NCBI GenBank assembly: GCA_021736475.1
Contig: JAIPFV010000002.1
Location: 1-64,000, forward strand
DNA: 64,000 bases
Source of the DNA: Spirochaetia bacterium
Lineage (GTDB): Bacteria > Spirochaetota > Spirochaetia > DSM-16054 > Sediminispirochaetaceae
Direction of reading: 5' to 3'
This document shows, one piece after another, positions 11,290-63,957 of the stretch. A model generated the notes under the pieces. It worked only from the letters and a program-made list of their open reading frames with translations. It had not been told where the DNA came from and did no database searches. Positions within the stretch are counted from its first letter, which is position 1. Each line of letters starts with the position of its first letter. Position numbers and translations under genes: made by a program.

Positions 11290-11304
11290 TACACTGCGCA
11301 GACT

Positions 11305-42383: not shown

Positions 42384-42431
42384 AGTATGCTGTTAACACT
42401 TAATGTTCTATGCAAGGCAGGATTTTTCTAT

Positions 42432-45161: not shown

Positions 45162-45179
45162 AATACGAGAAGTGAAATA

Positions 45180-45203
45180 AAGCCGGGCCTTTTTGCCCGG
45201 CTT
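45180..45203. terminator. Bidirectional terminator between secA and the LysM/M23 gene
   Basis: AAGCCGGGC and GCCCGGCTT form a 9 bp GC-rich stem around a 6 nt T-rich loop, with T-rich sequence on both outer sides (TATTTATAT on plus, TATTTCAC on minus). It overlaps the stop codon of the LysM gene. Confidence 0.8.
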
Positions 45204-46440: not shown

Positions 46441-46512
46441 AACTCTTAATATCCATATCGACAAAATGGAACTTACATATTAATATTAGTTCTCATTTTT
46501 ATAGGACAGTTT

Positions 46513-47004: not shown

Positions 47005-47019
47005 GACGGGTAAAGCAAT

Positions 47020-48891
47020 ATGTCGAAAGCTACTAGAAGATTCGGAATAGTTATAATCTTGTTTACAGTATTTGTACTTTTACTGGTTGCCCAATACTTT
47101 AAGGTAATGGTGCTAGAACCGGATAAACCAGAACCCGAACGCACCATAGAGACTTCCTCTGAACGCGGTCCGATTCTGGACAGAAACGGTCGGATATTAG
47201 CAATGCAGACCAGGCTATTCTCCGTTACCGCCTGGGTTCCTAATATAGAAAATCCTGCATATACTGCCGAAACTTTAGCCCCTATTCTTAAACTTGACGC
47301 TGAAATGCTTAAACGACGTATCGACCAGAGTCGAGGCTTTTTGTACATCAAACGCAAAGTCTCACCCAGCACCCGTGAAAAAGTAAGAAGACTGATTGCC
47401 GACCGTAAACTACCCGGGATTTCCCTGGAACCGGAGTACGGCCGCAACTATCCTGAGCAAGATTTAGCCGCGCATGTATTAGGTTTTGTGGGCACCGACA
47501 ATGTTGGGCTGGATGGTATCGAGCTTACCTACAATGATACTCTGGCCCCCTCGGCCGATGCCGAGGACAACGCACCCGTAAAATACGGAAACCAACTGTT
47601 TCTTACCCTTGATCTTAATATTCAGTATATGGCTGAAGAAGTCGCTCAGAAGACCTATGAGGAATACGATGCAAACTCAGTAATGGTCCTAGTGATGGAT
47701 GCCCGTAACGGGGAAATTTTAGGCTGGGCCAACTCACCCGATTTCGATCCAAATACCTTTAACCGGACAGACGTTTTTGCTAAGAACAACCGTCCCGTCA
47801 CCTACGCATACGAACCTGGGTCGGTATTTAAAATCTTCTCAATTGCCTCGCTCTTAGAACTCGGAGCACTGGCACCGGATACCGAATTTTACTGCAACGG
47901 CTATTATGAGCGTGAGTTTCCAAACGCCGATACGGTGCACATTAACTGTCTGGGAACCCATGGAACCGTGAATGCGCAGACAATTCTGCAATACTCATGC
48001 AACGCCGGTGCTGCCTATGCCTCTGATCTGGTGAGTAAAGAAGAGTTTCACCGTCAAATCACCGAGTTCGGGTTTGGAAGTAAAACGCATCTGCCCTTTC
48101 CAGGTGAAACCGGGGGAATATTCAGTGAACCTGAAAGGTGGTCGGGGCGTACCAAACCTACCATTGCTATTGGGCAGGAAATATCCGTTACAGCGCTTCA
48201 AATGATTACCGCCGCTACCGCTTTCACCAACCAGGGAATGCTGTTGCAGCCGCATATAGTAAAGAAAATTGTGTCCCCCGATGGGAAAATCATACAGGAA
48301 AACAAACGGGAACCGATCCGCCAGGCTGTCCGGCCGGAGGTTGCTGAAGCATCTCTCTTGATGATGGAAACAGTCACCGCCGATGGTGGAACCGCTCACC
48401 GGGCAAGAATCGATGGCATTCGGATGTCCGCCAAAACCGGCACCGCCCAGAAAATTGATCCGCGCACCGGGAACTACTCTGAAAACTCATTTGTAGCCTC
48501 CACTATGGCGATTTATCCTACCGATGATCCTAGACTGATCACCTATATCGTAATCGACACTCCCCAGGGAGATGAGTTTTATGGTGGAAGGATTGCCGCC
48601 CCGATGATCAGGGAGCTGGGTCTAAAGCTAATCCCTTACATGGGGATACCTACCGAGAATGAAGAGGTAATCCGCCATTCGGGGGTTGTAAAACTAAAGC
48701 AGCAGCCCCAGGTTGAGATAGGAGCCAGTCTACCCGACCTTCGGGGAATATCCAAACGACGGCTGCTGCCACTGCTCTCCCACGAAGATATTGATGCTAT
48801 TTTTCGAGGCGAGGGATGGGTTAAATCACAGGATCCTGAGCCAGGTACTCCGGTAACTAAAAACATGCAGTTAATTTTGGAGTTTGAATGA
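47020..48891 (+). CDS. Penicillin-binding protein (FtsI/PBP2-like transpeptidase) with PASTA domain
   Basis: Class B transpeptidase crosslinking peptidoglycan, 623 aa. A short cytoplasmic tail and membrane helix (IVIILFTVFVLLLVAQYF) lead to the dimerisation domain RGPILDRNGRILA. The active-site SVFK is at 268-271 (Ser268 acylated by beta-lactams), SCN at 326-328 and KTGTAQ follows; a PASTA-like domain ends the protein (LPDLRGISKRRLL). FtsI versus an elongation PBP cannot be decided, although PASTA is common in division-type PBPs. It overlaps the maf gene by ATGA. Confidence 0.93.
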   Translation: MSKATRRFGIVIILFTVFVLLLVAQYFKVMVLEPDKPEPERTIETSSERGPILDRNGRILAMQTRLFSVTAWVPNIENPAYTAETLAPILKLDAEMLKRRIDQSRGFLYIKRKVSPSTREKVRRLIADRKLPGISLEPEYGRNYPEQDLAAHVLGFVGTDNVGLDGIELTYNDTLAPSADAEDNAPVKYGNQLFLTLDLNIQYMAEEVAQKTYEEYDANSVMVLVMDARNGEILGWANSPDFDPNTFNRTDVFAKNNRPVTYAYEPGSVFKIFSIASLLELGALAPDTEFYCNGYYEREFPNADTVHINCLGTHGTVNAQTILQYSCNAGAAYASDLVSKEEFHRQITEFGFGSKTHLPFPGETGGIFSEPERWSGRTKPTIAIGQEISVTALQMITAATAFTNQGMLLQPHIVKKIVSPDGKIIQENKREPIRQAVRPEVAEASLLMMETVTADGGTAHRARIDGIRMSAKTGTAQKIDPRTGNYSENSFVASTMAIYPTDDPRLITYIVIDTPQGDEFYGGRIAAPMIRELGLKLIPYMGIPTENEEVIRHSGVVKLKQQPQVEIGASLPDLRGISKRRLLPLLSHEDIDAIFRGEGWVKSQDPEPGTPVTKNMQLILEFE

Positions 48892-50711
48892 ACTTCTTAG
48901 AACAGAACCGTAAGCATCTGGTACGCCTGTTTCCCACACTAGATACGGAAATTTTTGACCGGTTTCATCCATCGGAAAAACTATCAATCGGCATATCTGC
49001 ACAAGGCGCAGCTACCGCACAGCTTGAAGGCCGGTGGATACATTCAAAGCATAATCCATACAGGGAAGCGGCACGTCTGCTTGATTACAACAGTGAACCT
49101 CTTACGCCGGCGTGTATCTTTTTCGGTTTTGGCCTTGCTTATCAAATTGAGGAATTTTTCCGCAGGTTTCCCCAGGGTAACGCAATTATCGTTGAGCAGA
49201 GCCCCGAACTCTTTCTGAAAGCCCTCACAGCCCGTGACTTTACTTCCCTGTTCAACGAAAAGATTTCTCTGCTCATTGGGCTGGAAGCCGCCGAATTACG
49301 TGCAGCTCTTTCGCCACTGATTGGCAGAAACCATACCGTTATTCCTCTGCAAGCCGTTACTCAGACCGCTCCTGATTATTACTCCCTTGCTCACAGCATC
49401 GTAGAAGCCGAACGATCACGCAAGAGAGTAAACTCTAGCACTGTAAAGCGTTTCGGTCGCAGATGGATACGAAATCTCGCTCAAAACCTGGACACGATGG
49501 GTATGGCTGGAAACCTGAACCAGCTTCGGGATCTCTTTCGGGGAATACCGGCAATGGTCATTGCGGCCGGGCCTACTCTGGATACAGTCCTTCCTGACTT
49601 GGAGCAACTGCAGCAACGGATGGTATTAATCGCTACAGACACCTCACTGCGAGCCCTATTGCGCAATGGAGTTACTCCGGATTTTACACTGGTAGTTGAC
49701 CCTCAATACTGGAACACCCGTCATCTCGACGGTCTGGATTTACAAAGAACCATCCTCATTTCGGAATCCGCTACTCATCCTCGGGTTTTCCAGCACTCTT
49801 ACCGGGCTGTTTTTTTCAGCGGCTCGGTATTTCCTCTGGGAGGATACCTGGAACCGGGAGATGGGCCGCCCCATAAGCTGGGGGCCGGCGGCTCAGTTAC
49901 CACTACCGCCTGGGACTTTGCCCGCTATATTGGTGCCCAAGAAATATATTTAAGCGGTTTAGATCTTGGTTTTCCCGAAAAAAGAACCCACTATTGCGGC
50001 AGTTTTTTCGAACAGCTGCTGTTTACTCAGTCGAATCGCTTCAGCCCTTATGAGGGGCTTATATTTAACTATCTTCACAGCGGTGAACCCTTCTACCATG
50101 AAAACTACGACGGCGGCCTGACCCTAACCGACCGTCGCCTCATTATATATCGTCAGTGGTTTGAAGAACAGATAGCAAAAGACTCGGGCAGCACTTTTAC
50201 CCTTTCGCCAAAGGGTGTGAAAATACCGGGAATACAATTGGCCACGGTATCCCAACTACTGAAACTCCCCCCCTCTCGCCCGTTAATTGAGCGGCAAATA
50301 GACCGCACACTACAATTATATACCCTTCAACAGCAGCAAGACCGTGAAAAAAGAAAAAAGCAGCTGCAGAAAAGAATCAGTTCTCTTATCGATGAGCTGT
50401 ACCGCCTGAAAAGCATTGCAGAACAGGGCTTACAGGTAATCGCAGAAATTGAGGGCTACGCTGATGATCAATTCAAGCACTCCAAGCTCCAAGAAGCGTT
50501 GACTACTCTGGATACTCTGGATCAAAAGCTGCTGCACTCTGCAAGCCGTCATGTAGTCGGATTTCTGATTAACCCTGTGCTTGAGCAGATCCAGGAAGAG
50601 CTGTCGTCCAGCCAAAATCTACAAGAGAACCTACAAAGTTCTCAACAGGTTTACCAAAACCTTTTAGATTCGGCGAACTTCCATATAGAGGTATTTAGTA
50701 GCAACCAATAG
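48888..50711 (+). CDS. Maf-like DUF115 protein (6-hydroxymethylpterin kinase MptE-like fold)
   Basis: A 607 aa DUF115 protein. The conserved core is IPAMVIAAGPTLD, IATDTSLRALLRNGVTPDFTL then VVDPQ, and GAGGSVTTTAWDFARYIGAQ with SGLDLGFP (about 218-360). Relatives are the Maf motility-associated factors that attach nonulosonic acids to flagellins, so a flagellin-glycosylation role fits this motile genome, though it stands apart from sugar-synthesis genes. The C-terminal 170 residues form coiled coils. It overlaps the PBP stop by ATGA. A repeat element and terminator lie downstream. Confidence 0.85.
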   Translation: MNFLEQNRKHLVRLFPTLDTEIFDRFHPSEKLSIGISAQGAATAQLEGRWIHSKHNPYREAARLLDYNSEPLTPACIFFGFGLAYQIEEFFRRFPQGNAIIVEQSPELFLKALTARDFTSLFNEKISLLIGLEAAELRAALSPLIGRNHTVIPLQAVTQTAPDYYSLAHSIVEAERSRKRVNSSTVKRFGRRWIRNLAQNLDTMGMAGNLNQLRDLFRGIPAMVIAAGPTLDTVLPDLEQLQQRMVLIATDTSLRALLRNGVTPDFTLVVDPQYWNTRHLDGLDLQRTILISESATHPRVFQHSYRAVFFSGSVFPLGGYLEPGDGPPHKLGAGGSVTTTAWDFARYIGAQEIYLSGLDLGFPEKRTHYCGSFFEQLLFTQSNRFSPYEGLIFNYLHSGEPFYHENYDGGLTLTDRRLIIYRQWFEEQIAKDSGSTFTLSPKGVKIPGIQLATVSQLLKLPPSRPLIERQIDRTLQLYTLQQQQDREKRKKQLQKRISSLIDELYRLKSIAEQGLQVIAEIEGYADDQFKHSKLQEALTTLDTLDQKLLHSASRHVVGFLINPVLEQIQEELSSSQNLQENLQSSQQVYQNLLDSANFHIEVFSSNQ

Positions 50712-51001: not shown

Positions 51002-52903
51002 CTACAGAGAACCGGTTACAGCGATGGAAGGGCTCAAATAATAGAGTTCGGATTCCGTATTATACAGACTCATCTTATGCAGATGGGGACTGCCCGCAAT
51101 ATACAGGGTGATACTTTCCTCGGCAACTTCCTTCTGGAAGAGTATCTCATCGACTAATACCAGAACTTTATATTTTAGATAGGAAATTACAACCCCAAGG
51201 CTCTGCGGAGGATATGTATCGGTATAGAAAAGCTGCCCCTCAGGGTTAAAAACCGGAAACTCGTTCCAAAACAACTCTCCATTTTTGCCGGACAAGAACC
51301 TGCCGCTTTTCAATTCTATCTGTGATTCCACATACTTTGCAGGTATTGCTACCAGTTTATTTTCATATCGTATCACCAGCAGGGAGAGTATTGAAAAGCC
51401 CGCCGGCAAGGTCATTATAAAACTGGTCCCAAGCCCAGGGTGAGACGCAACCTCAAGCTTTCCTCCCTCAAATTCTTGTAGTTTTTGGTAAACTAGATCC
51501 AAACCGTAGCCGCGGCCGGCACGGGAGTCGGCCTCAGAGAGAGTTGAAAGTCCCGGATACACTAAATATGAAAGCAGCTCGTCATTACTACCGGCTTCTA
51601 TTCCCGCTTTGCGGGCTTGTTGTTTCAGTCCGTCCTCGTCAATACCGGCCCCGTCATCGGCAACTGTTATCCGGATCTGTTCGTCTTCTTTCTCGGCGGC
51701 AATAGTGATCCTTCCCATAGAGGCCTTACCCTTCTGCGCTCGCTCTACTGGTTTCTCAATACCGTGACTCACCGCATTCCGCAGCAAGTGAACTATAATT
51801 TCAGATATAAGCTCTGCTGCCCGGCGATCAAGGGTAATATTGCAGCGTTCTAGATGCAGTTCAACCTCTTTGTCCAGAGCACTGGCCAGATCACGAACCA
51901 ACCTGTAGTGGGGCTGCAGGGCATTATCAAGCTGCACCAGGCTGATACGATGGGTAAATGCTTCAAGATCATCAACTAATCGAGTAAACAGAGAAAGGTG
52001 TTCACTCTCTTTACCTAAGCTTGCCGATAGCTCCCGTTTCAGACGATGAGCCCGGATCTTAAGTTCATCTACATAGCCGTTGAGCTCGTCCAGATCACCT
52101 CCGTTTATGTGCACCTGCAGCTCATTCGTAAACTCAAGGCTGTCACTTTTCCGAACCTGCTCACCAAGCACACTCTTGTAGTCCAGTGGGGAGATGCTAA
52201 TTTTTTTTATCTGATCGATATTCACCGCCCGGTATAGTTCACTTTCCGGGAGGTTACCCGTACAGAAGAACATAAGCTGCAGAAAACGCTTCGGGTCCTC
52301 GTCCGCGGCTGCTGCGCCAAACTGGGGTTCACTGTGCACCACTTGAACCAGCTGTTCCAGATTGCTCATGATAAGATAGGCTTTGGCATAGGGAAGTTCA
52401 GCTTGATCCGAAAGCTCAACATACACCCGAAAAAAGCGCTCCTCTCTTTTTCTTGACTCCCGCAGCAATGATTTCTCAAAGTCACTGAGCATCGGCATAA
52501 AGGGTTCCTCATTCCGGGAAGCCTCCAGAACAGTCTCCCTGCTTTGGTCTTTTTTTTGGCCTTTGCTGTGCATACGATGCTGCCGCAATTGGCCCAGCAT
52601 TTCCTGGACCTTGTCGACACTGGAAAAAAAGGCATCAAATTGACTACGATTCGGCGCCTCAGAATGATCTCGAATAGTCTGTATAGCGCTTTCTATCTGA
52701 TGAGCTTCAGCTGCAATTTCCGTTTGGTTAAGATAATCAGCTTCAGATTTTAAGGAGTGGGCATTTCGAAACAACTCATCAATGTGATTCGGATCCCTTG
52801 GATTCTGCTCAAGAGCCAGAAGACTGCGATTGAGCCCTTTAATGAAGCTCTCACTATCTCTTAGAAAGGAGTTAAACAGAGAGCTTTGATTATCTTTTAC
52901 CAT
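51002..52903 (-). CDS. CheA-like histidine kinase (Hpt, dimerisation, ATPase, CheW)
   Basis: A 633 aa hybrid of the CheA family. An N-terminal Hpt domain has the phosphorylation site NAHSLKSE (His49; Ser instead of the usual Gly after Lys). No P2 domain is recognisable. The ATPase domain is intact: N box HLLRNAVSHGIE, G1 VADDGAGID and G2 RAGRGYGLDLV. A C-terminal CheW-like domain follows (LVIRYENKLVAIPAKYV). Last gene of the flagellar run, 13 bases after the J-domain gene. No cheW, cheY or cheB is adjacent, so it may signal outside classic chemotaxis. Confidence 0.88.
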   Translation of the reverse strand: MVKDNQSSLFNSFLRDSESFIKGLNRSLLALEQNPRDPNHIDELFRNAHSLKSEADYLNQTEIAAEAHQIESAIQTIRDHSEAPNRSQFDAFFSSVDKVQEMLGQLRQHRMHSKGQKKDQSRETVLEASRNEEPFMPMLSDFEKSLLRESRKREERFFRVYVELSDQAELPYAKAYLIMSNLEQLVQVVHSEPQFGAAAADEDPKRFLQLMFFCTGNLPESELYRAVNIDQIKKISISPLDYKSVLGEQVRKSDSLEFTNELQVHINGGDLDELNGYVDELKIRAHRLKRELSASLGKESEHLSLFTRLVDDLEAFTHRISLVQLDNALQPHYRLVRDLASALDKEVELHLERCNITLDRRAAELISEIIVHLLRNAVSHGIEKPVERAQKGKASMGRITIAAEKEDEQIRITVADDGAGIDEDGLKQQARKAGIEAGSNDELLSYLVYPGLSTLSEADSRAGRGYGLDLVYQKLQEFEGGKLEVASHPGLGTSFIMTLPAGFSILSLLVIRYENKLVAIPAKYVESQIELKSGRFLSGKNGELFWNEFPVFNPEGQLFYTDTYPPQSLGVVISYLKYKVLVLVDEILFQKEVAEESITLYIAGSPHLHKMSLYNTESELYYLSPSIAVTGSL

Positions 52904-52916
52904 TACGAGGCTCCTT

Positions 52917-53561
52917 TCAAATTTGTGAAAACAGAGACAAAGATTTGCTGCGAACTTTGCGGTCTAAAGATTGCATTCCTTTGACGAGTATGCCTACAAA
53001 TACATTCTTTGTGCCACACATTTCGACAGTTTGAAGTATTGCCAGTTTTACCGCCCGAGAACTACCTTCAAACAGAGCTTCAAGATCTTCAGCGGAGATA
53101 CTAACCCGCAGACGGCCAATTGCCTCGACAGCAGCAAGGACTACCGCCTCGGAAGGGTCTTGCAAAGCCTTGCGAAGATACACATAGGCTCCTTTTTGTT
53201 GAGAAAAACCCAGTCGCTTGGCCGCAAAGGCACGCATACTTGCCGTTTTTCCCTTCAAAAGGAGCTGCCCAATCTCATACACAGAAGTCTTTACCCCCTC
53301 TGCAGAAGAGGGTCGTGACGGCCGTAGTGGAGAAGTCCGATATGTACGCCGAACAGTCGAATCGAGGTAACTTCGTTTCTCTTCACGGGCCAAGAGAGTT
53401 TTATAGGCCGCCGCCACTTTTCTAAATTGTTCTCCCGTGCTGGGATCTTTGCTCATATCGGGATGGTACTTTTTTGCCAGAACTCGGTAGGCAGATTTTA
53501 TTTGTCCGGCATCCGCCCCTGCGGGAAGGCCCAATGTACGGTAGTACCTAAGCTCTTCCAC
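52917..53561 (-). CDS. J-domain protein with HEAT-like repeats
   Basis: A 214 aa protein. The N-terminal J-domain carries HPD at 33-35 (KKYHPDMSKD), needed to stimulate an Hsp70. There is no glycine/phenylalanine or zinc region of DnaJ; instead the C-terminal half has helical repeats typical of HEAT/armadillo (EAVVLAAVEAIGRLR, AVKLAILQTVEMCG, DRKVRSKSLSLFS). It overlaps the Hsp70 gene by 14 bases, so the two are a co-translated chaperone pair. The HEAT part probably binds a specific client, not yet known. Confidence 0.87.
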   Translation of the reverse strand: MEELRYYRTLGLPAGADAGQIKSAYRVLAKKYHPDMSKDPSTGEQFRKVAAAYKTLLAREEKRSYLDSTVRRTYRTSPLRPSRPSSAEGVKTSVYEIGQLLLKGKTASMRAFAAKRLGFSQQKGAYVYLRKALQDPSEAVVLAAVEAIGRLRVSISAEDLEALFEGSSRAVKLAILQTVEMCGTKNVFVGILVKGMQSLDRKVRSKSLSLFSQI

Positions 53562-55245
53562 ATTGAACCTCCTGCTCCTTTAGCAGTTCGTGAATCTCGG
53601 CTAAAACCGCCTCCAGCGCAACCTGGTACTGACGCAGAACTTTAACCGGAGATTCAGCATCGGCCCTGCGCGCTGCGGATAGAATTGTATGCACCTCTTT
53701 AATAAAAGCGGGAGCAGTATCGGCCGGTACCATTTCGATTAAGGTATCAGTCCGGCGTATCAAATTCTTGAGTTTTTCAAAGTGTTCATCTTCGGATACC
53801 ATACTTGCAGCATCACTTTCCCGGTCGATCGTAACATTTTTTTCGATACCCGTATCTATATCCCGGGCAACTACCTTTAACAATCCATCAAGGTCAATCT
53901 TAAACACTACCTCGATCTTTGCGGCGCCCCTTTCCATCTTTTTGATTCCGGAGAGAAGAAAACGGCCTAGAGAGACGTTTTTTACAGCAGATTGACTCTC
54001 TCCCTGGAGGATATGTACGGCAACACTCTGCTGGCCATCGGCTACCGTAGTAAACAACTGTTTTCTTTCTGCCGGAAGGGGAGCGTTCTTCTCTACTACC
54101 GGCAAAAACTTTTCACCTTCGATTTCAACTCCTAGGGGTAAGGGAGTGACATCTTTCAGTGAATGAAGCCGGTTCCGTTGGACAGTCGAGTTGGTCGAAA
54201 GCATAGAGGCGTAAACCGCTGTTCCAAGAGCCACAACCTCATCGGGGTTCACCTTAGCCTGGGGTCGCACATGAAGGAGCTCATTCATCAAATGAGAGAT
54301 TAGCGGTATTCTACTGGAACCACCGCTAAAAATGAGGGTATCAATCGCAACTTTTGAATCGTGAACCGCTTCACGGCTCAGGGTAATAGTTTTTTCAATT
54401 AACGGATAAATCAGTTTGTTGAACTCTTCCCGCTGCACAGTGTAGTGCAAGTGTATCGGTGTTCTATTTACATCGATAAACGGCAGAGCCACCGCAGCAG
54501 TATCCCTTTCGGATAGTTCAATTTTAGCCCTTTCAATCTGATCGAGCAGCTGTTGACGTAAAAAGGCATCCTCAGTCACACTAAAGCCGGCCTGCTGGTT
54601 GAAGGGTTCTGAGATACGCTGAAAAAGCAGTTTATCAAAATCAATTCCGCCTAGCTGATTATTCCCGTTGCTTGCCAGGACTTCAAAATTACTGCCGTCA
54701 CTGGTAAGGACGGTTGCATCAAAGGTACCTCCGCCAATATCATACACTAAAATATTCTTACGCGCATGTATCTGAGATGCGTAGGCCAGGGAAGCAGCGG
54801 TGGGCTCGTTGATTATACGATGAACTCTTAATCCTGCTAAACGCCCAGCTTCCTGGGTGGCCTTCCGCTGAAGTTCATTAAAGTAAGCGGGAACAGAAAT
54901 GACAACATCCCGCAAGTCCTCCCCCATATATGTTTCACAATCACGTCTTACTTTTTTAAGTATCTCCGCACTTATCTCCTGTGGTGTAAATGACCGGTTC
55001 CGCAGCTTTATTTCCGTTTTTTGTCCGATAAGACGCTTGATGGAGCTTATTGTCCCCTCGGCATTCACCATAGCCTGATTCTTCGCAGCTTCCCCAACCA
55101 AAAGCTCCCCCGATTCAGTTAAAGCTACCACTGAGGGAGTGAGAGTTTTACCACGATCATTGGGAATAATTCGAGGGGTATCATCATCCATAAATGCTGC
55201 GGCAGTATTTGTGGTGCCTAGATCAATTCCAATTATTCGGCTCAT
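53548..55245 (-). CDS. Hsp70 family chaperone (DnaK/HscA-like)
   Basis: A 565 aa Hsp70. The N-terminal ATPase domain has IIGIDLGTTNTAAA, ISVPAYFNE, INEPTAASLAYA, VYDIGGGTFDATVL and FSGGSSRIPLI; the substrate-binding sandwich (VTPLPLGVEIEG onward) and a shortened helical lid follow. It is about 70 residues shorter than standard DnaK, mainly in the lid. It differs from housekeeping DnaK and is not beside grpE or hrcA; its partner is the J/HEAT protein next door. Start overlaps the upstream gene by ATGA. Confidence 0.92.
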   Translation of the reverse strand: MSRIIGIDLGTTNTAAAFMDDDTPRIIPNDRGKTLTPSVVALTESGELLVGEAAKNQAMVNAEGTISSIKRLIGQKTEIKLRNRSFTPQEISAEILKKVRRDCETYMGEDLRDVVISVPAYFNELQRKATQEAGRLAGLRVHRIINEPTAASLAYASQIHARKNILVYDIGGGTFDATVLTSDGSNFEVLASNGNNQLGGIDFDKLLFQRISEPFNQQAGFSVTEDAFLRQQLLDQIERAKIELSERDTAAVALPFIDVNRTPIHLHYTVQREEFNKLIYPLIEKTITLSREAVHDSKVAIDTLIFSGGSSRIPLISHLMNELLHVRPQAKVNPDEVVALGTAVYASMLSTNSTVQRNRLHSLKDVTPLPLGVEIEGEKFLPVVEKNAPLPAERKQLFTTVADGQQSVAVHILQGESQSAVKNVSLGRFLLSGIKKMERGAAKIEVVFKIDLDGLLKVVARDIDTGIEKNVTIDRESDAASMVSEDEHFEKLKNLIRRTDTLIEMVPADTAPAFIKEVHTILSAARRADAESPVKVLRQYQVALEAVLAEIHELLKEQEVQCGRA

Positions 55246-55829: not shown

Positions 55830-56159
55830 TTATCCCGATATATCGATGTTTTTTCCTAAGGCAGGATCCTCGAAATAGTGTTTTTTCCTCTTCTCTTCCG
55901 ATTGTTCAGACTCTTGTCCTTTGCCTTCTTCATGCTTGAGGCCACCACCTTCGGATTGTTTTTCCCGTATCTGTGTACTTTCCTCCGGTACTTCTTCAGT
56001 TTGCCTCACTGATTCAGCATTCTGCCTGGTCTGTTTAGCAAGCTCCGCCCCGCGGAGACCCTGCTGCACCACTGAAGCTTCTTTCAGCACTGCCTGCTGT
56101 TTTCCTACCTGATTAATATGAGCAAATAGTACCTGTAAATCAATCGGTTGAAGGGGCAT
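55830..56159 (-). CDS. Small charged protein, unknown
   Basis: A 109 aa, strongly polar protein: a short helical N-terminus (MPLQPIDLQVLFAHINQVGK), a glutamine/alanine-rich helix, then a Glu/Lys/Gln-rich low-complexity tail ending in YFEDPALGKNIDISG. No signal peptide or membrane helix. Its start overlaps the fapA stop by 20 bases. Small proteins of this kind follow FapA in other spirochaete flagellar runs; no function is assigned. Real rather than chance, judged by the operon fit. Confidence 0.65.
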   Translation of the reverse strand: MPLQPIDLQVLFAHINQVGKQQAVLKEASVVQQGLRGAELAKQTRQNAESVRQTEEVPEESTQIREKQSEGGGLKHEEGKGQESEQSEEKRKKHYFEDPALGKNIDISG

Positions 56160-58113
56160 TGTTTGGCCTCGAATAGTCCTCCTCAGGTTGAATGTATTTC
56201 GTTACTTTTATATCGTCCTTCTCGTTCACAAAAGTAACTGATTTATATTCGTTTCTTACTTCTAAAGCGGCTTCTTTGATGCTGAGCTTGACTCCACTAA
56301 ATACGCGTTCAGAAGCCGATATCCGTCCCTTTACCTTCAAGGACGAGAGGTAGTGCTGCAGTTCATCTATCTCTTCCTGCTTCTCTTGCTTCTCCTGTTC
56401 GATGGCGGACTTCTTTTCGGTGATCTCTTTAAGATAAGCCAGCTTTTCCTTTGACAGCTTTTTACCACTCTTCTCCTTCAGCTTTTTAATGGTGGTCATA
56501 TCCTGCATAATCTTATCAAGCTGTTCTTCAATCTCTTCATTTCGAGTGTTAAGATCATATAAGCGCTGTTTGCTGTTTGGATCATAACCGACTTCCAGCA
56601 CTGTTTCTGAGCCTGCCACGGACCCCAAAGTTTTCGCATGAATCTCTTCGGCCGCCTTCAGATGCCCACCTACAATAGTAGCCCGTTTACCCTGGCAGAT
56701 AATTCGGTGGTTGGCGCTCACCTTAGAATTGATGATACCGTCGGAGGCAACCACTAGATCGCCTGCTTCAATCCGGGCATTTTCGATGAACTTTGACCAC
56801 ACCCCACGCCCGGCCCGTACAAAGCCCTCGCCTTTACCGGTTATTCCCTGATGTACAATTACATCACCCTCGGCATCCAGTTCGCTCTTCCCGACATTTC
56901 CCATTACTTCGATATTTCCGGCCGCCTGGACCTTGAAACCGTCTTCGACATTGCCTTTGACGATTACCGTCCCCAGGAAAATGACATTACCACCGGTCTT
57001 TAAGTTTACATCTCCCGGAACTACTAAAATCGGTTCCACACTGATTTTGTTGTTTGCCAGCATCACCTGGCCGTTGATGGACGCCAAGGCAGTCATTCCG
57101 TCATCCGAAAGGTGGACGTTCTTGCCTACTTCAAACTTTACATCGTTGCCGTCTTTCGCAGGCAGCAGCTTCCCGGTTACCGTTCGTCCGGGCTGGCCCT
57201 CGCCGGGAGGAATTTTCTTTGCTAGGGCCTGACCTTCAACCACATTTTGGATTACATTCGATTCTTTAAAATCTACCCGCCCGTTCTTTTCCTTTAGCTT
57301 TATTTTTGAACGATCGGTTTCAAAATTATAAATAATCCGGGCATCACTCCCATTTACCGGGGCGGTTCCCTCTGCTACTAAAACTGTCTCATTGTAGGTA
57401 GGAAAGTCCACAAACTTTCGGAGAGGCTCTTCCTTTATTCCAAATACCACACCGTTGGTTTTAAGAAAACCAAGCAGACCGTCAAAATTAGGATCTGCTC
57501 CATTTTTAGTAGGCGGTTTGCAGATCATAAACGCCTTCATATCAAAATCGGTAATGTCGACGGTAATAATTGAATCGTTGGCTGGATTGTAATCAAAGTC
57601 GCCAATTTTTATATAGCGGTTATCGGCGGCCTTTACAGTTTTCTGGATCATCTGTTTATCATAGCGCTCGATGTCTCGCTCTTTTACCTTGGCATAGACC
57701 TGCCTTTCAGTGACGGGAGTTCCGTTCCCAACCGGCGGTATCACCTTTAGGAACACTCCTTCGGGGAAGAGCCGTACAACCGCCTCTCCATCTCTATCTT
57801 GATCTTTATCCTCTTCCATACCGGAACCCATTTCAAAAGAGTCTTCAGTCAGTTTAAGCTGGGCCGGATCAATTGCCGGATAAGCTACTATCACACAGTT
57901 TGTCCGTCCGATGCCGAAGGTTCCTTTTTTACCGGGTTCGCGAATTTCGTATTCTATCTTTTTTATAGGAAGGGAAAGCTCAATTGCAGCCTGACGCAGG
58001 GCTTCATCGAGGTCTTCTCCTTCAACCTGAACCCAGCGGCTCTTGCGGTCTTCTTCTGCCTGGGTCCGCATAAACTCTCTTAGCTTGGCAATTTCTACCA
58101 CTTCGCCCCCCAC
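56140..58113 (-). CDS. FapA family (DUF342) protein with Jag-N domain
   Basis: A 657 aa FapA/DUF342 protein, polymer-like beta-helix scaffolds often found in flagellar operons. An N-terminal Jag-N domain (VQVEGEDLDEALRQAA, GIGRTNCVIV) leads to the DUF342 repeats, e.g. VVPGDVNLKTGGNVIFLG, VKGNVEDGFKVQAAGNIEV and VIVHQGITGKGEG, then a long C-terminal coiled coil (EITEKKSAIEQEKQEKQEEI). Start GTG at 58113 is four bases after the sigma28 stop; GTG 58101 has a GGGGGG just upstream and is a good alternative. A role in flagellar or surface assembly is inferred. Confidence 0.88.
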   Translation of the reverse strand: MGGEVVEIAKLREFMRTQAEEDRKSRWVQVEGEDLDEALRQAAIELSLPIKKIEYEIREPGKKGTFGIGRTNCVIVAYPAIDPAQLKLTEDSFEMGSGMEEDKDQDRDGEAVVRLFPEGVFLKVIPPVGNGTPVTERQVYAKVKERDIERYDKQMIQKTVKAADNRYIKIGDFDYNPANDSIITVDITDFDMKAFMICKPPTKNGADPNFDGLLGFLKTNGVVFGIKEEPLRKFVDFPTYNETVLVAEGTAPVNGSDARIIYNFETDRSKIKLKEKNGRVDFKESNVIQNVVEGQALAKKIPPGEGQPGRTVTGKLLPAKDGNDVKFEVGKNVHLSDDGMTALASINGQVMLANNKISVEPILVVPGDVNLKTGGNVIFLGTVIVKGNVEDGFKVQAAGNIEVMGNVGKSELDAEGDVIVHQGITGKGEGFVRAGRGVWSKFIENARIEAGDLVVASDGIINSKVSANHRIICQGKRATIVGGHLKAAEEIHAKTLGSVAGSETVLEVGYDPNSKQRLYDLNTRNEEIEEQLDKIMQDMTTIKKLKEKSGKKLSKEKLAYLKEITEKKSAIEQEKQEKQEEIDELQHYLSSLKVKGRISASERVFSGVKLSIKEAALEVRNEYKSVTFVNEKDDIKVTKYIQPEEDYSRPNNAPSTD

Positions 58114-58118: not shown

Positions 58119-58907
58119 CTAGAAAATCCCCTTTTTAATATTGGTCAGTTTTGAACGCAGACGAATAATTGCCTTTGTATGCAGCTGGCTTATCCGCGAT
58201 TCAGTGACTTCCAGTACCTTACCAATCTCTTTAAGAGTAAGATCCTCGTAGTAATACAGAACCAGCACTTTTTTTTCTTTCTCAGGAAGCTCATCGATAG
58301 CCTGTACAATAACCCGCTTTATTTCTTCTTTCTCTACAATTGTATCAGGATTTAAGCTTTGGGGAGATTCAATGCTGTCGACAATAGAAATACTATCGTT
58401 TTCTTCGCTGCTGTACCATACATCGTTCAGCGAAAGAATAGAAGTACCGCTAATCTTCATCATTGTTTTCTGAAAATCGCTCTCCGACATCCCCAGTTCC
58501 GCAGCTATCTCTTTATCCGTTGCCGAACGTCCCAAGGATGCCTCCAGACGATGTACGGTATCTTCAATTTCACGTGATTTTTGTCTTACCGACCGGGGCA
58601 CCCAGTCTATAGACCGGAGCTCATCGAAGATAGCTCCGCGTATACGTGTGACAGCATAGGTTTTAAACTTCACGTGTTTATCCGGATCGTATTTATTGAT
58701 GGCATCGATCAAACCAAAGACTCCGAACCCTACCAGATCGTCAAAGTCGACGTTATGCGGCATACCTACTGCCACCTTGCCGGCAACATACTTCACCAAG
58801 GGTGCGTACTGCTTGACAAACATATCGCGAATTTTGGGATCTTGATTTTTTCTGTACAATTCCCAGAGTTCTTCTTCTGTCTTCTCCTCTAACAGTTTCT
58901 CCCCCAT
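58119..58907 (-). CDS. fliA: Flagellar sigma factor (FliA/WhiG, sigma28)
   Basis: Directs RNA polymerase to late flagellar and chemotaxis promoters. The 262 aa length is normal. Region 2 shows [19 protein letters not shown] and [19 protein letters not shown] then DWVPRSVR; region 3 follows ([20 protein letters not shown]); region 4 is [20 protein letters not shown] with the helix-turn-helix [20 protein letters not shown] 58907 has AGGAAGG upstream. It lies between the acidic membrane protein and fapA. No anti-sigma FlgM gene is visible nearby. Confidence 0.95.
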
Positions 58908-59707: not shown

Positions 59708-60577
59708 TTATGTCTTTCCTAACAGTCGTTTCAAAAAGCTGCCGACCCCGCTGCCTTCCTTGTACTCAACGTTTTCCAACCGGCTCACAATATGACGTAC
59801 GCAAATTGAGGCTTTCCCGTTTGGTTCGGAAGCCATAAAGGGCTTCTGGTGAATTACCGCCGAGCCGACTCCCTGATCCTCATATACGTAGCCCAGGTAA
59901 TCGAGCTTCAGATTCAGGAACTGACCGGCAATATTGATCACCCTTTCTGCTATTTTACGCCCTTCTGTCACACTTTTCACTCTATTTACTATCAATTTCA
60001 GGCCTAAGTCCATATTTTCTATTTCTGTTGCAATAATCTTGATTATACCATACGCATCAGTAATAGCGGTAGGCTCCGGAGTGGTAACAATAATGGCATC
60101 ATCCGCCGCCGCGATAAACCCCAGTACATTATTCGAAACCCCAGCGCTGGTATCAATAATAATGATATCTGCATTAGACAGAGCGGAGAGCTCTTCGATA
60201 AAATGGCCCCGTTCTTCGTCGGTGAGGTTGGCGATTTTGGAAAAACCGGAAGCACCCGCAACTATCTGAATACCGTATTCGGTATCCATCAGGATTTCAC
60301 TCATCCGCTTTTGCTTGCGGATAAGGTGGTACAGGTTGTACTTCGGAATAATTCCAAGTATCACATTTACATTGGCAAGGCCGAGATCAGCATCCATAAC
60401 TATTACTTTTTTGCCTAGTTGAGCATAGGCCATGGCCAAGTTGATTGATATGTTGGTTTTCCCTACTCCGCCCTTCCCGCTGGCAATTGCAATAATTCTG
60501 GTTTTGTTCTCGGAACCACCCTCTTCCGATTTGCGGTTTTTCATGAGCTCCCGCAACTGTTCAGCCTGATCCGTCAT
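59708..60577 (-). CDS. flhG: FlhG (YlxH), MinD-type ATPase controlling flagellar number
   Basis: ATPase that regulates the number and position of flagella, partly by activating the GTPase FlhF. The 289 aa protein begins with DQAEQLR (3-9), the conserved helix that stimulates FlhF, followed by the deviant Walker A GKGGVGKT (34-41), DADLGLANVN and IDTSAGVSNN. A typical MinD C-terminal membrane helix is present in outline (GVGSFLKRLLGK). Start overlaps flhF by ATGA, so the pair is translationally coupled. Confidence 0.94.
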   Translation of the reverse strand: MTDQAEQLRELMKNRKSEEGGSENKTRIIAIASGKGGVGKTNISINLAMAYAQLGKKVIVMDADLGLANVNVILGIIPKYNLYHLIRKQKRMSEILMDTEYGIQIVAGASGFSKIANLTDEERGHFIEELSALSNADIIIIDTSAGVSNNVLGFIAAADDAIIVTTPEPTAITDAYGIIKIIATEIENMDLGLKLIVNRVKSVTEGRKIAERVINIAGQFLNLKLDYLGYVYEDQGVGSAVIHQKPFMASEPNGKASICVRHIVSRLENVEYKEGSGVGSFLKRLLGKT

Positions 60578-61842
60578 TTTTCACCCCGCTTTGTTTTTGT
60601 CATCTCTTTACCCACCCTGTAAAGCTGCTCCTGCTCTGCCGGAGTAACCGCATCATTTCCATCTGTGCCGTCCTCTTCGGAGTGATCTACCTCACCGAAT
60701 TTCTGTTTTAGCCGATCCACATGAATCGGGAAGCCTTCCAAGGTTTTTAACATGCGTATACGGGTCGCCCGCTGAATATCCTCCGGAACCCGTTGCCCGT
60801 CGGCAACATACGAGAGCTGTTTGCCCCTTTCATTCAACACGCTGATTAAATTTCCGATCCGCATTGTCTCATCGAGTTTGGTGAGTACGACAGCCTCATA
60901 ATTGAAGGGTTCGAACTGCTGCATAATTTCTTTCAGGTCCGAGACCTTTGTAGTGGCACTCACAGCTAGATGGATTTCCGCTTTTCCGCCGCAACCGTCC
61001 AATATCTCCCGCATCTTAGCCAGATTCATATAATCCTTTGGACTCTTTCCAATGGTATCAATTAGCACTAAATCGGCATCCTGATCCAGAGCTATCTGAT
61101 TCTGTAAATCCTGGAAAGATTCTACGCTTGTAAAAGGTACCTGCAGGATTTCCGCATAGGTGCGAATCTGCTGCTTCGCGCCGATTCTATAATTATCTAT
61201 AGTAATAATCCGCACATCCTTCGATCGCTCACCCTTGCTTCCAAGACTGTGTATAGCTGCCAGTTTGGCAATGGTAGTAGTTTTTCCAACACCCGTCGGC
61301 CCTACCAGGATAAGTATGCGCGGTTTCCCCTCACGGTAGGTTTCCTTCACAGGGACGCACTCACCAATCCATTCCAGCACCTGGGATAACACATACTCCG
61401 TATCATTCAGTTGTTCATAACTGAGCTCCTGCCGTAGGCGCTCCAGCAAATTCTGAATAAAGTGAAAAGAAAACTCATTCTGTGACAACACTTCGGTTAC
61501 CTCAGAAAAGACAGAATGATCCTCCTGTACTTTAGGAGGTGTGTAAGATTCAAACTGCTGCTTCAGCGACTGGACTTCCTCAAGAACTTTCTGCAGGGTT
61601 TTATCCCCTTTTACGCTATCGAGAATCTTCTGTTTTTCTTCCTGTACCCGGGCTTTCTGCTTACTCGGGGTTTCCTGAGCAATGTAACCGGTCATCTCAA
61701 CTCCCTCTTTAGAAAACATTCCCATAAACCCTCCCAGTCGTACTGTTCTATGGGTCAGAATTTTCGCCCGTTCTCCGTACTTTCGACGGATTTTTTCCAA
61801 TACTTCGTGATGACTGGGCGCTTGTTCAGTAAAATACTGCAT
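60574..61842 (-). CDS. flhF: Flagellar GTPase FlhF
   Basis: SRP-type GTPase that sets flagellar site and number. The 422 aa protein has an N-terminal B domain (MQYFTEQAPSHHEVLEKIRR), an N helical bundle, and the G domain with P-loop GPTGVGKTT (181-189), IDNYRIGAKQQIRTYAEIL, LIDTIGKSPKD and LTKLDETMRIGN. It lies between flhA (12 bp gap) and flhG and shares the operon with both. Its dimer partner and activator FlhG is encoded next. Confidence 0.95.
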   Translation of the reverse strand: MQYFTEQAPSHHEVLEKIRRKYGERAKILTHRTVRLGGFMGMFSKEGVEMTGYIAQETPSKQKARVQEEKQKILDSVKGDKTLQKVLEEVQSLKQQFESYTPPKVQEDHSVFSEVTEVLSQNEFSFHFIQNLLERLRQELSYEQLNDTEYVLSQVLEWIGECVPVKETYREGKPRILILVGPTGVGKTTTIAKLAAIHSLGSKGERSKDVRIITIDNYRIGAKQQIRTYAEILQVPFTSVESFQDLQNQIALDQDADLVLIDTIGKSPKDYMNLAKMREILDGCGGKAEIHLAVSATTKVSDLKEIMQQFEPFNYEAVVLTKLDETMRIGNLISVLNERGKQLSYVADGQRVPEDIQRATRIRMLKTLEGFPIHVDRLKQKFGEVDHSEEDGTDGNDAVTPAEQEQLYRVGKEMTKTKRGEK

Positions 61843-61854
61843 ATCTTATCCTCT

Positions 61855-63957
61855 TCATGACTGCTGTACCTGGGTATCCAGGACTATCTCTCCCAGACCT
61901 TCCGTTGTTATATCCGCGACTACCTCCGGTACTGATAAAACCGCGATATCGGGTATATCACGCTCCAGGCTCTGTCGAACCAACTTTCGGGCAGCCTCGG
62001 AGCAGAGCATTACCGGCATATACCCCAACTGTTGTACCTGATGTACTGCATTGGTTGCAGCATTGATCCACGCCCGGTGCTTCTCAGGCTCCAGAGATGC
62101 AATCGGTCCCTGAGCCGTTTCGACCCGTGAATCAATGATCTCTTGCTCAAGCTCCGGATTGATAGTCAATACCCGCAACACACGATTCTCATCGGCATAC
62201 TGAAGACAAATCTGTCGCCCCAGGGCTTGCCGGGCTTTTTCCCCTAAAAAGGTTACGTTGTTGGAAACTGGTGCGTAATCGGCTAAGGTCTCCAGTATGG
62301 GCACCATATTACGGATTGAAACCCGTTCCTGCAATAAGCCTTGCAATACTTTCTGCATTTCTCCCAAAGACAATGATTTATTTACATCGTCCACAACCGC
62401 CGGGTAGTTATCACGCAGGGTATCCAGAATTGACTTCACTTCCTGACGTCCAAGCATTTCGTGGGCGTGTCTCTTAATGATTTCTGTGAGATGAGTAGCA
62501 ATAATTGACGGGCTGTCGACAACCGTATAACCTGACCGTTCAGCCTCTTCACGATGGTCTTCATCAATCCACAGGGCCGGCAAACCAAAGGCGGGGTCGG
62601 TTGCCTTGTCACCTTCAATTTCCTCGCTTACATCTCCCGGATTGATAGCCAGGTAGAAGCCGGTTTTCAGCTTAGCCCGGCCTACTTCAACTCCCTTTAT
62701 CTTTACGCTGTATTCGCTTGGTTCCAGACGCATATTATCTATTATTCTTATTCGCGGCACTACTAAGCCAAGTTCCAGGGCGGATTCACGGCGTATACGG
62801 GTAATCCGGTCCAGCAGCTCCGCACCTTGGTCTTTATCAACCAGCGGGATCAACCCGTATCCAAGTTCCAAGGAAAGTGGATCCAAGGGCACTATTGGAG
62901 ATACATCCTGGGGTTCTTCCTCCGGAGTAGCTGCTTCTTCTGCCTCTCTAGCCGTTCTTTGTGCCGCCACCTGCTTACTGGAGAGCCGGTAGGCTAGATA
63001 TCCAATTAGCAGTGCAAGAGGAACCAAAACCAAAGTAGGAAAGCCAGGTAAAAATGCAAGAAACAGCAGAAAAAATGAGGCAATCCAATAAACCCGCGAG
63101 TGCTGGCTGAACTGCTCTGAAACGTCCGAACCAAAGGTTCCATCCGAGATTGCCCTGGTTACTATTAGACCGGTAGCAGTGGAAATAAACAGAGCTGGAA
63201 ACTGGGTAACCAAACCGTCACCGACGGTTAAGGAGACGTAGGTATTGGCTGCCAGACCGATAGATTCTCCGTGAATGGTAGTTCCGACAATCAGACCTCC
63301 GACTATATTTATAGCGGTGATCAAAATACCAACCTTTACGTTTCCCGAAACAAACTTCGAAGCACCATCCATTGCACCGTAGAAGTCAACCTCCCGCTGC
63401 AGGTCGTTTTTCTGTCGGGTGGCCTCTTCTTCAGTCAATGAGCCGGAATTGTAGGCGGCTTCAATTGCCATCTGCTTACCGGGCAGTGCATCCAGGGTAA
63501 ATCGTGCAGCTACCTCCGCAACTCGGGTCGCGCCCTTGGTAATAACAATAAACTGCACCGAGATCAAAATGATAAATATAATAAATCCAATGACAAGCCC
63601 TTCGGTTCCCGAAGTACCGACCACAAACGTCGCGAAAGCTTTTACGATCTTACCTTCAAACTCACTGCCTTGAGAGAGAATTAGACGGGTAGAGCTTACA
63701 TTTAAGGCTAATCCAAACACCGTTGAAAGCAAAAGGAGAGTCGGGAATACTGAGAACTCCAACGCTCGGCGGGTATAGAGAACGATCAATATTACCAGTA
63801 AACTGAATACCAGGTTTGAGGCCATCAGTAAATCCAGCATGAATGCCGGAAGGGGTATTAGCATCATAGCTATAACGGCAATTACACCAACCGCAACCAT
63901 AATATCGCTTCTTCCGTTCAGGAGCGAACCCCGTAATGTGCCGGAAATATCAGCCAT
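61855..63957 (-). CDS. flhA: Flagellar export apparatus protein FlhA
   Basis: Inner-membrane export gate of the flagellar type III system. 700 aa, full length. Eight N-terminal membrane helices (from ALMMLIPLPAFMLDLLM-like hydrophobic blocks; VIGFIIFIILISVQFIVITKGA is one), the FHIPEP-type loop region with RVAEVAARFTLDALPGKQMAIE then A, and a long cytoplasmic domain (PLDPLSLELGYGLI onward). AAGGAG lies 5 bases before the ATG at 63957. First visible gene of the flagellar operon; flhB would be expected upstream, off the right edge. Confidence 0.97.
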   Translation of the reverse strand: MADISGTLRGSLLNGRSDIMVAVGVIAVIAMMLIPLPAFMLDLLMASNLVFSLLVILIVLYTRRALEFSVFPTLLLLSTVFGLALNVSSTRLILSQGSEFEGKIVKAFATFVVGTSGTEGLVIGFIIFIILISVQFIVITKGATRVAEVAARFTLDALPGKQMAIEAAYNSGSLTEEEATRQKNDLQREVDFYGAMDGASKFVSGNVKVGILITAINIVGGLIVGTTIHGESIGLAANTYVSLTVGDGLVTQFPALFISTATGLIVTRAISDGTFGSDVSEQFSQHSRVYWIASFFLLFLAFLPGFPTLVLVPLALLIGYLAYRLSSKQVAAQRTAREAEEAATPEEEPQDVSPIVPLDPLSLELGYGLIPLVDKDQGAELLDRITRIRRESALELGLVVPRIRIIDNMRLEPSEYSVKIKGVEVGRAKLKTGFYLAINPGDVSEEIEGDKATDPAFGLPALWIDEDHREEAERSGYTVVDSPSIIATHLTEIIKRHAHEMLGRQEVKSILDTLRDNYPAVVDDVNKSLSLGEMQKVLQGLLQERVSIRNMVPILETLADYAPVSNNVTFLGEKARQALGRQICLQYADENRVLRVLTINPELEQEIIDSRVETAQGPIASLEPEKHRAWINAATNAVHQVQQLGYMPVMLCSEAARKLVRQSLERDIPDIAVLSVPEVVADITTEGLGEIVLDTQVQQS

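Follow-up and report, generated by a model that had tools for sequence, protein, structure and literature searches.

What does an Hsp70 with its own J-domain protein do in the middle of a flagellar locus, and which of its parts does that role require? Hsp70 is usually taught as an ATP machine. The locus described here presents a natural series at a single position, running from an intact protein, through one with a dead ATPase, to the substrate-binding domain (SBD) alone and finally to an SBD with a HEAT protein that lacks both ATPase and J domain. The series raises the question of how the substrate half functions by itself, and supplies a small test protein of 202 residues. Families and genomes are cited as numbered in the present survey (f- and G-numbers, respectively).

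Gene layout of the locus

The window, the whole stretch of 64,000 nucleotides that was analysed, carries the pair in one run of genes on the minus strand (Table 1). ORFs with Pfam matches confirm the Hsp70, the J-domain/HEAT protein (J-HEAT) and the CheA-like kinase proposed in the earlier note as real genes, and ORF coordinates bear out the 14-base overlap between the start of J-HEAT and the end of Hsp70. FapA and sigma-28 lie upstream of Hsp70 on the same strand. The described order, with the pair between FapA/sigma-28 and the kinase, holds, but two small genes, TM/HTH and orf109, separate Hsp70 from FapA. The first is the constant upstream neighbour of Hsp70 and, judged by position, probably corresponds to the 'TM+HTH' gene of PMC10802407. 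The FlgV-like protein has no Pfam match, and we infer its identity from the features in Table 1. A DnaK-length Hsp70 and a DnaJ-type match are found on another contig (G000:C1:20513-22294 and 22493), in keeping with the claimed distance from housekeeping loci.

Table 1. Genes of the flagellar locus in the window
Feature	Position	Strand	Evidence
FlhG, FlhF, FlhA of the same gene run	59708..63957	(-)	
FlgV-like protein, 246 aa	58911..59651	(-)	Position; hydrophobic N-terminus and polar tail (by eye); conserved C-terminal peptide
Sigma-28, FliA/WhiG family	58119..58907	(-)	Pfam / curated profile matches
FapA	56140..58113	(-)	Pfam FapA 4.8e-75
Conserved 109-aa protein (orf109), function unassigned	55830..56159	(-)	No Pfam match; recurs in same gene run
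TM/coiled-coil/HTH-type protein, 194 aa	55242..55826	(-)	DUF6115, DUF2802 and SpiroCoCo_C matches, all below curated cut-off
Flagellar-locus Hsp70, 565 aa	53548..55245	(-)	Pfam HSP70 E 1e-143, motifs, arch, trees
J-domain + HEAT protein, 214 aa, GTG start	52917..53561	(-)	DnaJ E 1.8e-17, HEAT_2 E 1.1e-7
CheA-like histidine kinase, 633 aa	51002..52903	(-)	Hpt, P2, HATPase_c

The Hsp70 and its J-HEAT partner

The window protein belongs to the Hsp70 superfamily, with the ATPase motifs IDLGTTN, VKR, NEPTAA, DLGGGTFD and GGSSRIP and a substrate-binding β-sandwich with a peptide cleft. Full-length relatives keep the ATPase motifs with minor substitutions, except in two genomes (G153 and G174) where they are lost; Borrelia-like Hsp70s have NFKV at the K70 site. 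Scores fall below the housekeeping DnaK equivalog cut-offs (TIGR02350, 506.1 vs. 822.55; PRK00290, 520.6 vs. 648), and the linker (HSLKD) and arch (E404, V429) differ from the VLLLD linker and hydrophobic-404/Ala429 arch kept by 17 canonical-length DnaKs (conservative swaps at 389/390). An acidic residue occupies position 404 in 49 of 64 flagellar Hsp70s and in 0/17 of these DnaKs, while position 429 is Val or Ile in 52 of the 64 and Ala in 17/17. Linker positions 390/392 are mostly polar in the flagellar proteins, and Q433 is invariant. The lid is short, as the earlier note had it; in the predicted model of a relative, the lid region comprises three helices following a low-confidence linker.

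The partner is a J-domain protein by its HPD motif, which is present in 65 of the 68 typed J-HEAT ORFs. It is not a canonical DnaJ (curated DnaJ_bact score 59.2 vs. 377.2): HEAT repeats stand in place of the zinc-binding and C-terminal client domains, and an AF2 model (pLDDT 90.7) displays eight HEAT-type helices after a flexible linker. A literature search for bacterial J-HEAT proteins found nothing. The J-contact Arg of Hsp70, which we take to be the equivalent of E. coli R167, is Ala or Glu in all eight Borrelia-like Hsp70s, which occur without J-HEAT; among the other 58 it is Arg in 45 and Lys in 6. Genome G191, discussed below, was still included in the alignments of this residue and of the ATPase motifs.

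The flagellar pair shares its domain plan, ATPase motifs and HPD with canonical DnaK-DnaJ-GrpE, but differs in forming its own class clade, in the acidic arch, polar linker and short lid of the Hsp70, and in the HEAT repeats that form the J-protein's client end. Only in f11 was a GrpE gene seen adjoining the pair.

Distribution and phylogeny

A profile search identified J-HEAT or a HEAT remnant in at least 63 of 394 genomes of the window's class; of the 68 profile matches, five from f3 genomes cover the J domain only and were left out of the carriers. The earlier note had suggested a gene-neighbourhood survey, in which unrelated contexts in most genomes would speak against its proposal. Within the class the survey gave the opposite, as 63/63 carriers display one flagellar locus, FliA-FapA-orf109-TM/HTH-(Hsp70-J-HEAT)-(CheA-like). 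The TM/HTH gene is in view for 61 of them; contigs of G274 and G376 end before it, and the 192-aa Hsp70 of G274, considered as a reduced form, is instead cut by the contig edge. About 20 class families share this gene order, as do two families outside the class (f35, f20). In 8/8 Borrelia-like genomes, Hsp70 occupies the same slot, right after the TM/HTH gene, without J-HEAT.

In a draw of 118 class genomes, all 23 carriers are FapA-positive, and there is no carrier among 26 FapA-less (P 0.0016) or 19 FlhA-less genomes (P 0.011), where carrier counts assume that the draw lies within the 394 profile-searched genomes and both hypergeometric P values treat genomes as independent despite ancestry. 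Hsp70 or SBD fills the slot in 30 of the 92 FapA-positive genomes of the draw. The pair is absent from 5/5 Treponema-like f3 genomes whose locus was examined; with this absence and its patchy presence elsewhere, it is therefore dispensable for motility in general. A tie to flagellar or signalling proteins, as first proposed, is well supported by position in the class, but in f38 the pair adjoins cysS/trxB, away from flagellar genes, as seen in two genomes whose flanks are long enough and, in agreement, on a short contig of a third. A strictly flagellar association was accordingly rejected for the phylum (f38, f11) and kept for the class.

All 63 class flagellar Hsp70s are monophyletic with respect to DnaK (support 0.86, or 0.75 with more outgroups), and their tree follows that of FapA, with 30 of 37 well-supported splits common to both. 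Beyond the class, f35 and f38 join at support 0.73 in a tree with one f38 sequence, from which three sequences chosen in error had been left out. A clean clade at this depth was not retained: in a tree that also takes in f20, f11 and two further f38 sequences, six other Hsp70s of non-flagellar loci intrude. The pair has probably been inherited with the flagellar locus since before the window's class arose. It is very improbable that the protein is a general stress Hsp70 duplicate merely sitting in a flagellar operon: its full ATPase motif set and the HPD of its partner would suit such a duplicate, but the separate clade and fixed position, the lack of carriers among flagella-less genomes of the draw, the changed arch and linker and the SBD-only descendants described below do not. 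Tree and arch likewise disfavor a general DnaK duplicate.

Reduced forms at the same position

Repeated loss of the ATPase half is not visible from the window alone, and emerged from the class survey. At the level of sequence, the ATPase half is lost and the SBD kept, next to J-HEAT or its HEAT remnant, in four genomes of two families, f67 (G177, G270) and f73 (G218, G350), and two genomes of a third family (G153, G174) retain a dead ATPase. In f73 the J domain is gone as well, leaving the SBD and a HEAT-only partner. The SBD-only genes match the profile with E values of 6.5e-30 (G177), 1.1e-42 (G270), 3.5e-25 (G218) and 3.9e-25 (G350), and for three of them hhalign profile-profile probabilities are 99.5-99.9%, vs. 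at most 1.3% when another ORF was shuffled 20 times. The protein of f67 has a Pfam match to HSP70 391-492 (9.3e-21) as well as matches to DnaK SBD folds.

Searches by tblastn for a frameshifted ATPase in the reduced loci found nothing better than 0.16 apart from G372, where a 44-aa stub of the ATPase is fused to HEAT. Searches for a relocated ATPase half (E 1e-8) gave one DnaK-length match each in G177 and G270 and one contig-cut gene in G218; G350 has two contig-cut N-terminal Hsp70 fragments, and a second Hsp70 is possible there. Two further candidates were set aside. G191 (f49) is not counted as a fifth SBD-only genome, as the 193-aa ORF in its slot is not recognisable as Hsp70, with no SBD profile match at E 10 and an hhalign probability of 1%, like shuffles. 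A TM/HTH-SBD fusion in G350 is not claimed, the ORF crossing an N gap.

These forms may be decaying remnants, the ATP-driven pair being the sole functional form and SBD retention incidental, a reading we consider somewhat unlikely. In its favor, losses are patchy, G372 has the ATPase stub, G164 keeps J-HEAT only, and the G191 ORF is past recognition. With dS values of 1.1-2.5 for f73 and f49 (none could be computed for f67), NG86 gives a dN/dS in f73 of 0.27 for the SBD and 0.25 for HEAT, vs. 0.11 for FapA. Evolution is faster in the reduced genes than in FapA, and slow decay could therefore be under way. Nor is the f49 contrast between dead ATPase (0.22) and SBD (0.145) larger than in intact pairs (f4: 0.18 vs. 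0.11). Against decay, however, two f67 genera have open frames of about 200 aa that start at the interdomain linker, the same reduction is found in two f73 genomes, f73 dN/dS is well below 1, and an SBD fold is predicted with high confidence for the SBD-only protein. It is tempting, if still doubtful, to speculate that the SBD was freed from the ATPase at least twice and persists as a static clamp for peptides, working with the HEAT protein in the flagellar or chemosensory apparatus, such that SBD and HEAT in f73 would form a structural adaptor without an ATP cycle.

The CheA-like kinase

The kinase has the CheA hallmarks of a P1 His, a P2 domain and ATPase N and G boxes; the H-box His is kept in 69 and the N-box Asn in 70 of 71 aligned sequences. 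The earlier note was wrong in denying it a P2 domain (PF07194 scores 29.4 bits vs. a cut-off of 23). No Pfam match to the dimerisation (PF02895) or CheW-like domain was found in the window kinase; an f35 relative has both.

A CheA-like gene lies in the examined stretch of 44/63 class carriers (40 with recognised Hsp70 or SBD, four without), and contig-cut fragments occur in G354 and G403. In the gene orders compared, it follows the pair. In f73 a CheW-like gene stands between pair and kinase, in f35 the pair precedes CheW-CheA, and the f11 pair is part of a CheD-CheR-CheB operon that also encodes GrpE and Hpt. This adjacency, together with the precedent of Hsp70-like StkA upstream of the Dif proteins (PMC4319316), would suit a pair acting as private chaperone of the adjoining chemosensory kinase. 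We nonetheless regard this as unlikely. The kinase does not qualify as an obligate client, as 30 class genomes have it in the slot without the pair. Conversely, 18 genomes have Hsp70 and J without a counted CheA-like gene, 14 of them with none or weak matches (E > 1e-13) in the stretch and two (G294, G392) on contigs ending too early to judge, and all eight Borrelia-like genomes have Hsp70 and no CheA-like gene. The kinase adjoins the pair in most carriers, but the link is looser than had been claimed: it is a frequent, not an obligate, neighbor.

A proposed grip-and-dock model

We think it reasonably likely that Hsp70 and J-HEAT are a dedicated pair of the FlhA-FlhF-FlhG-FlgV-FliA-FapA locus, in which SBD gripping and HEAT docking are the indispensable functions. 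The HEAT arm would dock on a constant partner of flagellar or chemosensory type, where the J domain, through its HPD, would load the neighboring Hsp70. The SBD, with its altered arch, would grip one particular peptide segment of a presumably single client, rather than generic unfolded chains, and ATP turnover would release it. Gripping and docking, not ATP-driven refolding, would thus be the essential step. One lead to a candidate client is the FlgV C-terminal peptide, which is conserved where visible; most Hsp70-less stretches end before FlgV, and so offer no contrast between carriers and non-carriers.

Relation to known systems

The end gene of the B. burgdorferi flgB superoperon, bb0264, is presumably this Hsp70, which its position matches. 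Borrelia-like genomes resemble the window in carrying a member of the Hsp70 clade right after the TM/HTH gene, but have neither J-HEAT nor a CheA-like gene, and the Hsp70 lid is nearly missing. The Hsp70 appears to be a neglected flagellar gene that ends the Borrelia-like superoperon: the FlgV papers report co-transcription of bb0272-bb0264, a range that covers it, while their main texts, figure images aside, contain neither 'Hsp70' nor 'DnaK' and name no such chaperone (PMC11607428, PMC10802407).

The cyanobacterial DnaK1-DnaJ3-GrpE system is likewise a dedicated Hsp70 and J pair for a motility machine, but serves type IV pili rather than flagella, and its abstract mentions neither a HEAT arm nor an SBD-only form (PMC9239167). 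Myxococcus StkA and SglK are Hsp70 paralogues linked to social motility; they belong to other loci, and the available parts of the two reports mention no J-HEAT partner (PMC4319316, PMC8265645). Chlamydomonas cilia proteins appear among the PDB matches, namely J-protein RSP16 (7jtk) and HSP70A (7n6g, 7sqc); there too an Hsp70 and a J-protein are built into a motile organelle, an unrelated one that serves as analogy only.

Genes of the locus

An ORF check bore out the coordinates that an earlier note had assigned to three genes of the window (Hsp70, J-protein and CheA-like kinase), including a 14-base overlap between the 565-residue Hsp70 and the 214-residue J-protein, which starts with GTG. 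Pfam assigns the former to HSP70 (E 1e-143) and detects DnaJ (E 1.8e-17) and HEAT_2 (E 1.1e-7) in the latter, here termed J-HEAT. The kinase had been described as lacking a P2 domain, which is wrong, since Pfam detects Hpt, P2 and HATPase_c. Two small genes separate Hsp70 from FapA. As had been claimed, the pair lies far from dnaK housekeeping loci: a DnaK-length Hsp70 and a DnaJ-type gene are located on another contig.

Genes for SecA, an M23/LysM peptidase, signal peptidase, PBP2 and a Maf-type protein form one block in the window, which recurs, complete or partial, next to the flagellar locus in many class families. The FlgV-position protein (FlgV-like by position) and its relatives share a similar short C-terminal peptide in Hsp70-bearing genomes where seen.

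Features of the window and of other fetched stretches (L numbers)
Stretch	Positions	Strand	Feature
Window	42387-50711		SecA-to-Maf block
Window	51002-52903	-	CheA-like kinase
Window	52917-53561	-	J-HEAT
Window	53548-55245	-	Hsp70
Window	58911-59651	-	FlgV-position protein
L075 (G245)	1065-4147		canonical-length Hsp70 and J-protein ORF
L238 (f73)	4392-4868		CheW-like gene
L111 (f76)	3755-4231		CheW-like gene
L322 (f35)	4473-4946		CheW-like gene
L104 (f49)	3034-5148		second CheA-like ORF
L106 (f49)	3031-5145		second CheA-like ORF
L394 (f11, G016)	1-11382	one strand	operon with pair

The flagellar slot within the class

FapA is present in 92 of the 118 class genomes of the draw. Stretches around it were taken from every FapA-positive genome except G230, whose match is weak, and their genes were typed with profile HMMs built from those same stretches. 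In stretches that extend far enough, gene order is nearly constant as FapA-orf109-TM/HTH (orf109 being a conserved 109-residue protein), and the slot after TM/HTH adopts five states: Hsp70-J-HEAT-CheA-like, Hsp70-J-HEAT, CheA-like alone, Hsp70 alone (8/8 genomes of the Borrelia-like family f5), or none of the set (5/5 genomes of the Treponema-like family f3). The pair is present in two records named Treponema (L302, L311). Hsp70 or its substrate-binding half (SBD) occupies the slot in at least 30 of the 92 FapA-positive genomes, a lower bound because contig ends truncate several loci.

A J-HEAT profile with a 1e-20 threshold, scored on the best seven candidates per genome, matches at least 68 of the 394 class genomes. 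Five were not counted as carriers, only the J domain being matched. Each of the remaining 63 was inspected, and all have the gene in the flagellar locus, the contig ending before TM/HTH in G274 and G376. The 23 carriers that fall in the draw are all FapA-positive; there are none among its 26 FapA-less genomes (P 0.0016) or its 19 FlhA-less genomes (P 0.011), both values being uncorrected for ancestry and assuming the 118 genomes to lie within the 394. FlhA-family matches occur without a FapA match in G156:C77, G208:C26 (f52) and the f54 g94 genomes; these possibly belong to other secretion systems or point to a reduced set of flagellar genes. In G245, Hsp70 and J-protein ORFs of dnaK-dnaJ type lie downstream of the flagellar pair, at a distance of about 5 kb.

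The CheA-like kinase is a frequent neighbour of the pair, not an obligate partner. Among 131 class genomes, a sample enriched for J carriers, 39 have Hsp70, J and CheA-like genes (plus one without TM/HTH in view) and 18 have Hsp70 and J without a counted CheA-like gene (G354 and G403 retain a cut fragment of it; G294 and G392 end too early). CheA-like occurs without the pair in 30, Hsp70 alone in nine (eight Borrelia-like, plus G096, where the contig stops at that point), and J with CheA-like but no recognised full Hsp70 in four (G164, G191, G350, G372); of the rest, one has J by itself on a cut contig, 25 show TM/HTH only (some of them cut) and four have no TM/HTH in view. Of 71 aligned CheA-like sequences, two of which come from outside the class, 69 have the H-box His and 70 the N-box Asn. 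A CheW-like gene precedes the kinase in f73, f76 and f35 (Pfam-tested in f35), which suggests that the class kinase descended from a full CheW-CheA pair. In f49 the first CheA-like ORF is followed by another, 704 residues long and weakly CheA-like.

Loss of the ATPase half

Full-length Hsp70s retain the ATPase motifs with minor substitutions, except in G153 and G174 (f49), where the ATPase half is present with dead motifs; those of G206, from the same genus, are intact. At the locus level, the SBD alone fills the Hsp70 slot in G177 and G270 (f67) and in G218 and G350 (f73), adjoining a J-HEAT or HEAT gene. The f67 cases, from two genera, are a 221-residue ORF with homology starting at the linker (G177) and one of 202 residues (G270); five f67 genomes were searched, the other three having no J-HEAT match, and three of f73. 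The J domain is also lost in f73, G350 encoding a 138-residue pure HEAT protein and G218 having the same region. G191, in which an unrecognisable ORF precedes J-HEAT, was dropped from the SBD-only set, leaving four genomes in two families rather than five in three. In G350 an ATPase half may persist elsewhere in the genome. Together with the weaker wider clade, these points make a dedicated chaperone system and a free-standing SBD clamp slightly less probable, and decay of the reduced forms more probable. G164 retains J-HEAT alone, and G372 has a 44-residue ATPase stub fused to HEAT.

HPD is found in 65/68 typed J-HEAT ORFs and is missing from both proteins of f73 and from the fusion in G372. 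Because the J-proteins of f67 and of G153/G174 retain it, they may recruit housekeeping DnaK.

Alone, the f67 SBD-only protein matches Pfam HSP70 (9.3e-21). Its predicted fold is a β-sandwich with three helices (pLDDT 89.5), and the top Foldseek matches of the model are DnaK SBD structures (E 3.6e-15), the TM of about 0.55 reflecting a different placement of lid and sandwich. J-HEAT is predicted to comprise a J domain, a flexible linker and eight further helices (pLDDT 90.7), and the model matches designed HEAT-like alphaRep proteins.

NG86 dN/dS values, rough because dS is 1.1 to 2.5, are 0.27 (SBD), 0.25 (HEAT), 0.15 (CheA-like) and 0.11 (FapA) in f73; in f49 the dead ATPase half gives 0.22 (43% identity) versus 0.145 for the SBD (56%), a weak contrast because the ATPase half is the faster in 3/7 computable intact pairs. 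In f67, dS is not computable.

Sequence features and relationships

Position 404 is Asp or Glu in 49/64 flagellar-locus Hsp70s versus 0/17 canonical-length DnaKs, and position 429 is Val or Ile in 52/64 and Ala in 17/17, respectively. Q433 is invariant. In the class, though not in f35 or f38, polar residues predominate at linker positions 390 and 392. The J-contact Arg position, which we take to be R167 in E. coli numbering, is Ala or Glu in 8/8 Borrelia-like Hsp70s, all without J-HEAT; the other 58 have Arg in 45 and Lys in six.

By position, the slot Hsp70 of the Borrelia-like genomes presumably corresponds to B. burgdorferi bb0264. Co-transcription of bb0264 within the flgB superoperon has been reported in FlgV papers (PMC10802407, PMC11607428), and their main texts contain neither 'Hsp70' nor 'DnaK'. 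Passages of a paper on DnaK duplication (PMC11019930) mention neither spirochaetes nor flagella. In the open-licence literature, with subscription literature mostly outside our scope, no report of the pair or of SBD-only Hsp70s was found. Dedicated Hsp70s are described for other motility systems, namely cyanobacterial DnaK1-DnaJ3 (PMC9239167) and Myxococcus StkA and SglK (PMC4319316, PMC8265645).

In a first tree, 63 class Hsp70s are monophyletic (support 0.86) and group with f35 and one f38 sequence against other Hsp70s (0.73). The Hsp70 and FapA trees have 30/37 well-supported splits in common, and the distance correlation of 0.55 was matched by 0/2000 permutations. This class history fits vertical inheritance with many losses. 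Adding f20, f11 and two further f38 sequences leaves the class monophyletic (0.75); a clean wider clade is weakened, six Hsp70s of non-flagellar loci falling inside the group that joins class and outside-class pairs.

The flagellar setting on which the earlier note had built holds for the class carriers, but f38 and f11 differ outside the class. The order in f35 is FliA-FapA-orf109-TM/HTH-Hsp70-J-HEAT-CheW-CheA (the last two by Pfam), and in f20 FapA-TM/HTH-Hsp70-J-HEAT; the deeper origin of the pair rests mainly on this common gene order. In f38, cysS and trxB flank the pair in two genomes, the third being a short contig, and cheD lies about 4 kb away in one. The f11 order is CheD-CheR-CheB-ComFB-Hsp70-J-HEAT-GrpE-HEAT/cyclase-Hpt-response regulator/GGDEF/EAL, an operon of chemotaxis and second-messenger genes with its own complete Hsp70 system. 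Of the 19 further stretches taken around FapA outside the class, most show no Hsp70. A phylum-wide profile search matched at least 23/296 (eight full matches from the class, 13 to the J domain in f3, and G013 and G016), and is not exhaustive because the f35 and f38 pairs are missing from its matches.

In the wider tree, a further group of Hsp70s (496-570 residues; L082, L083, L084, L089-L091), from non-flagellar loci of class genomes, falls close to those of the pairs.
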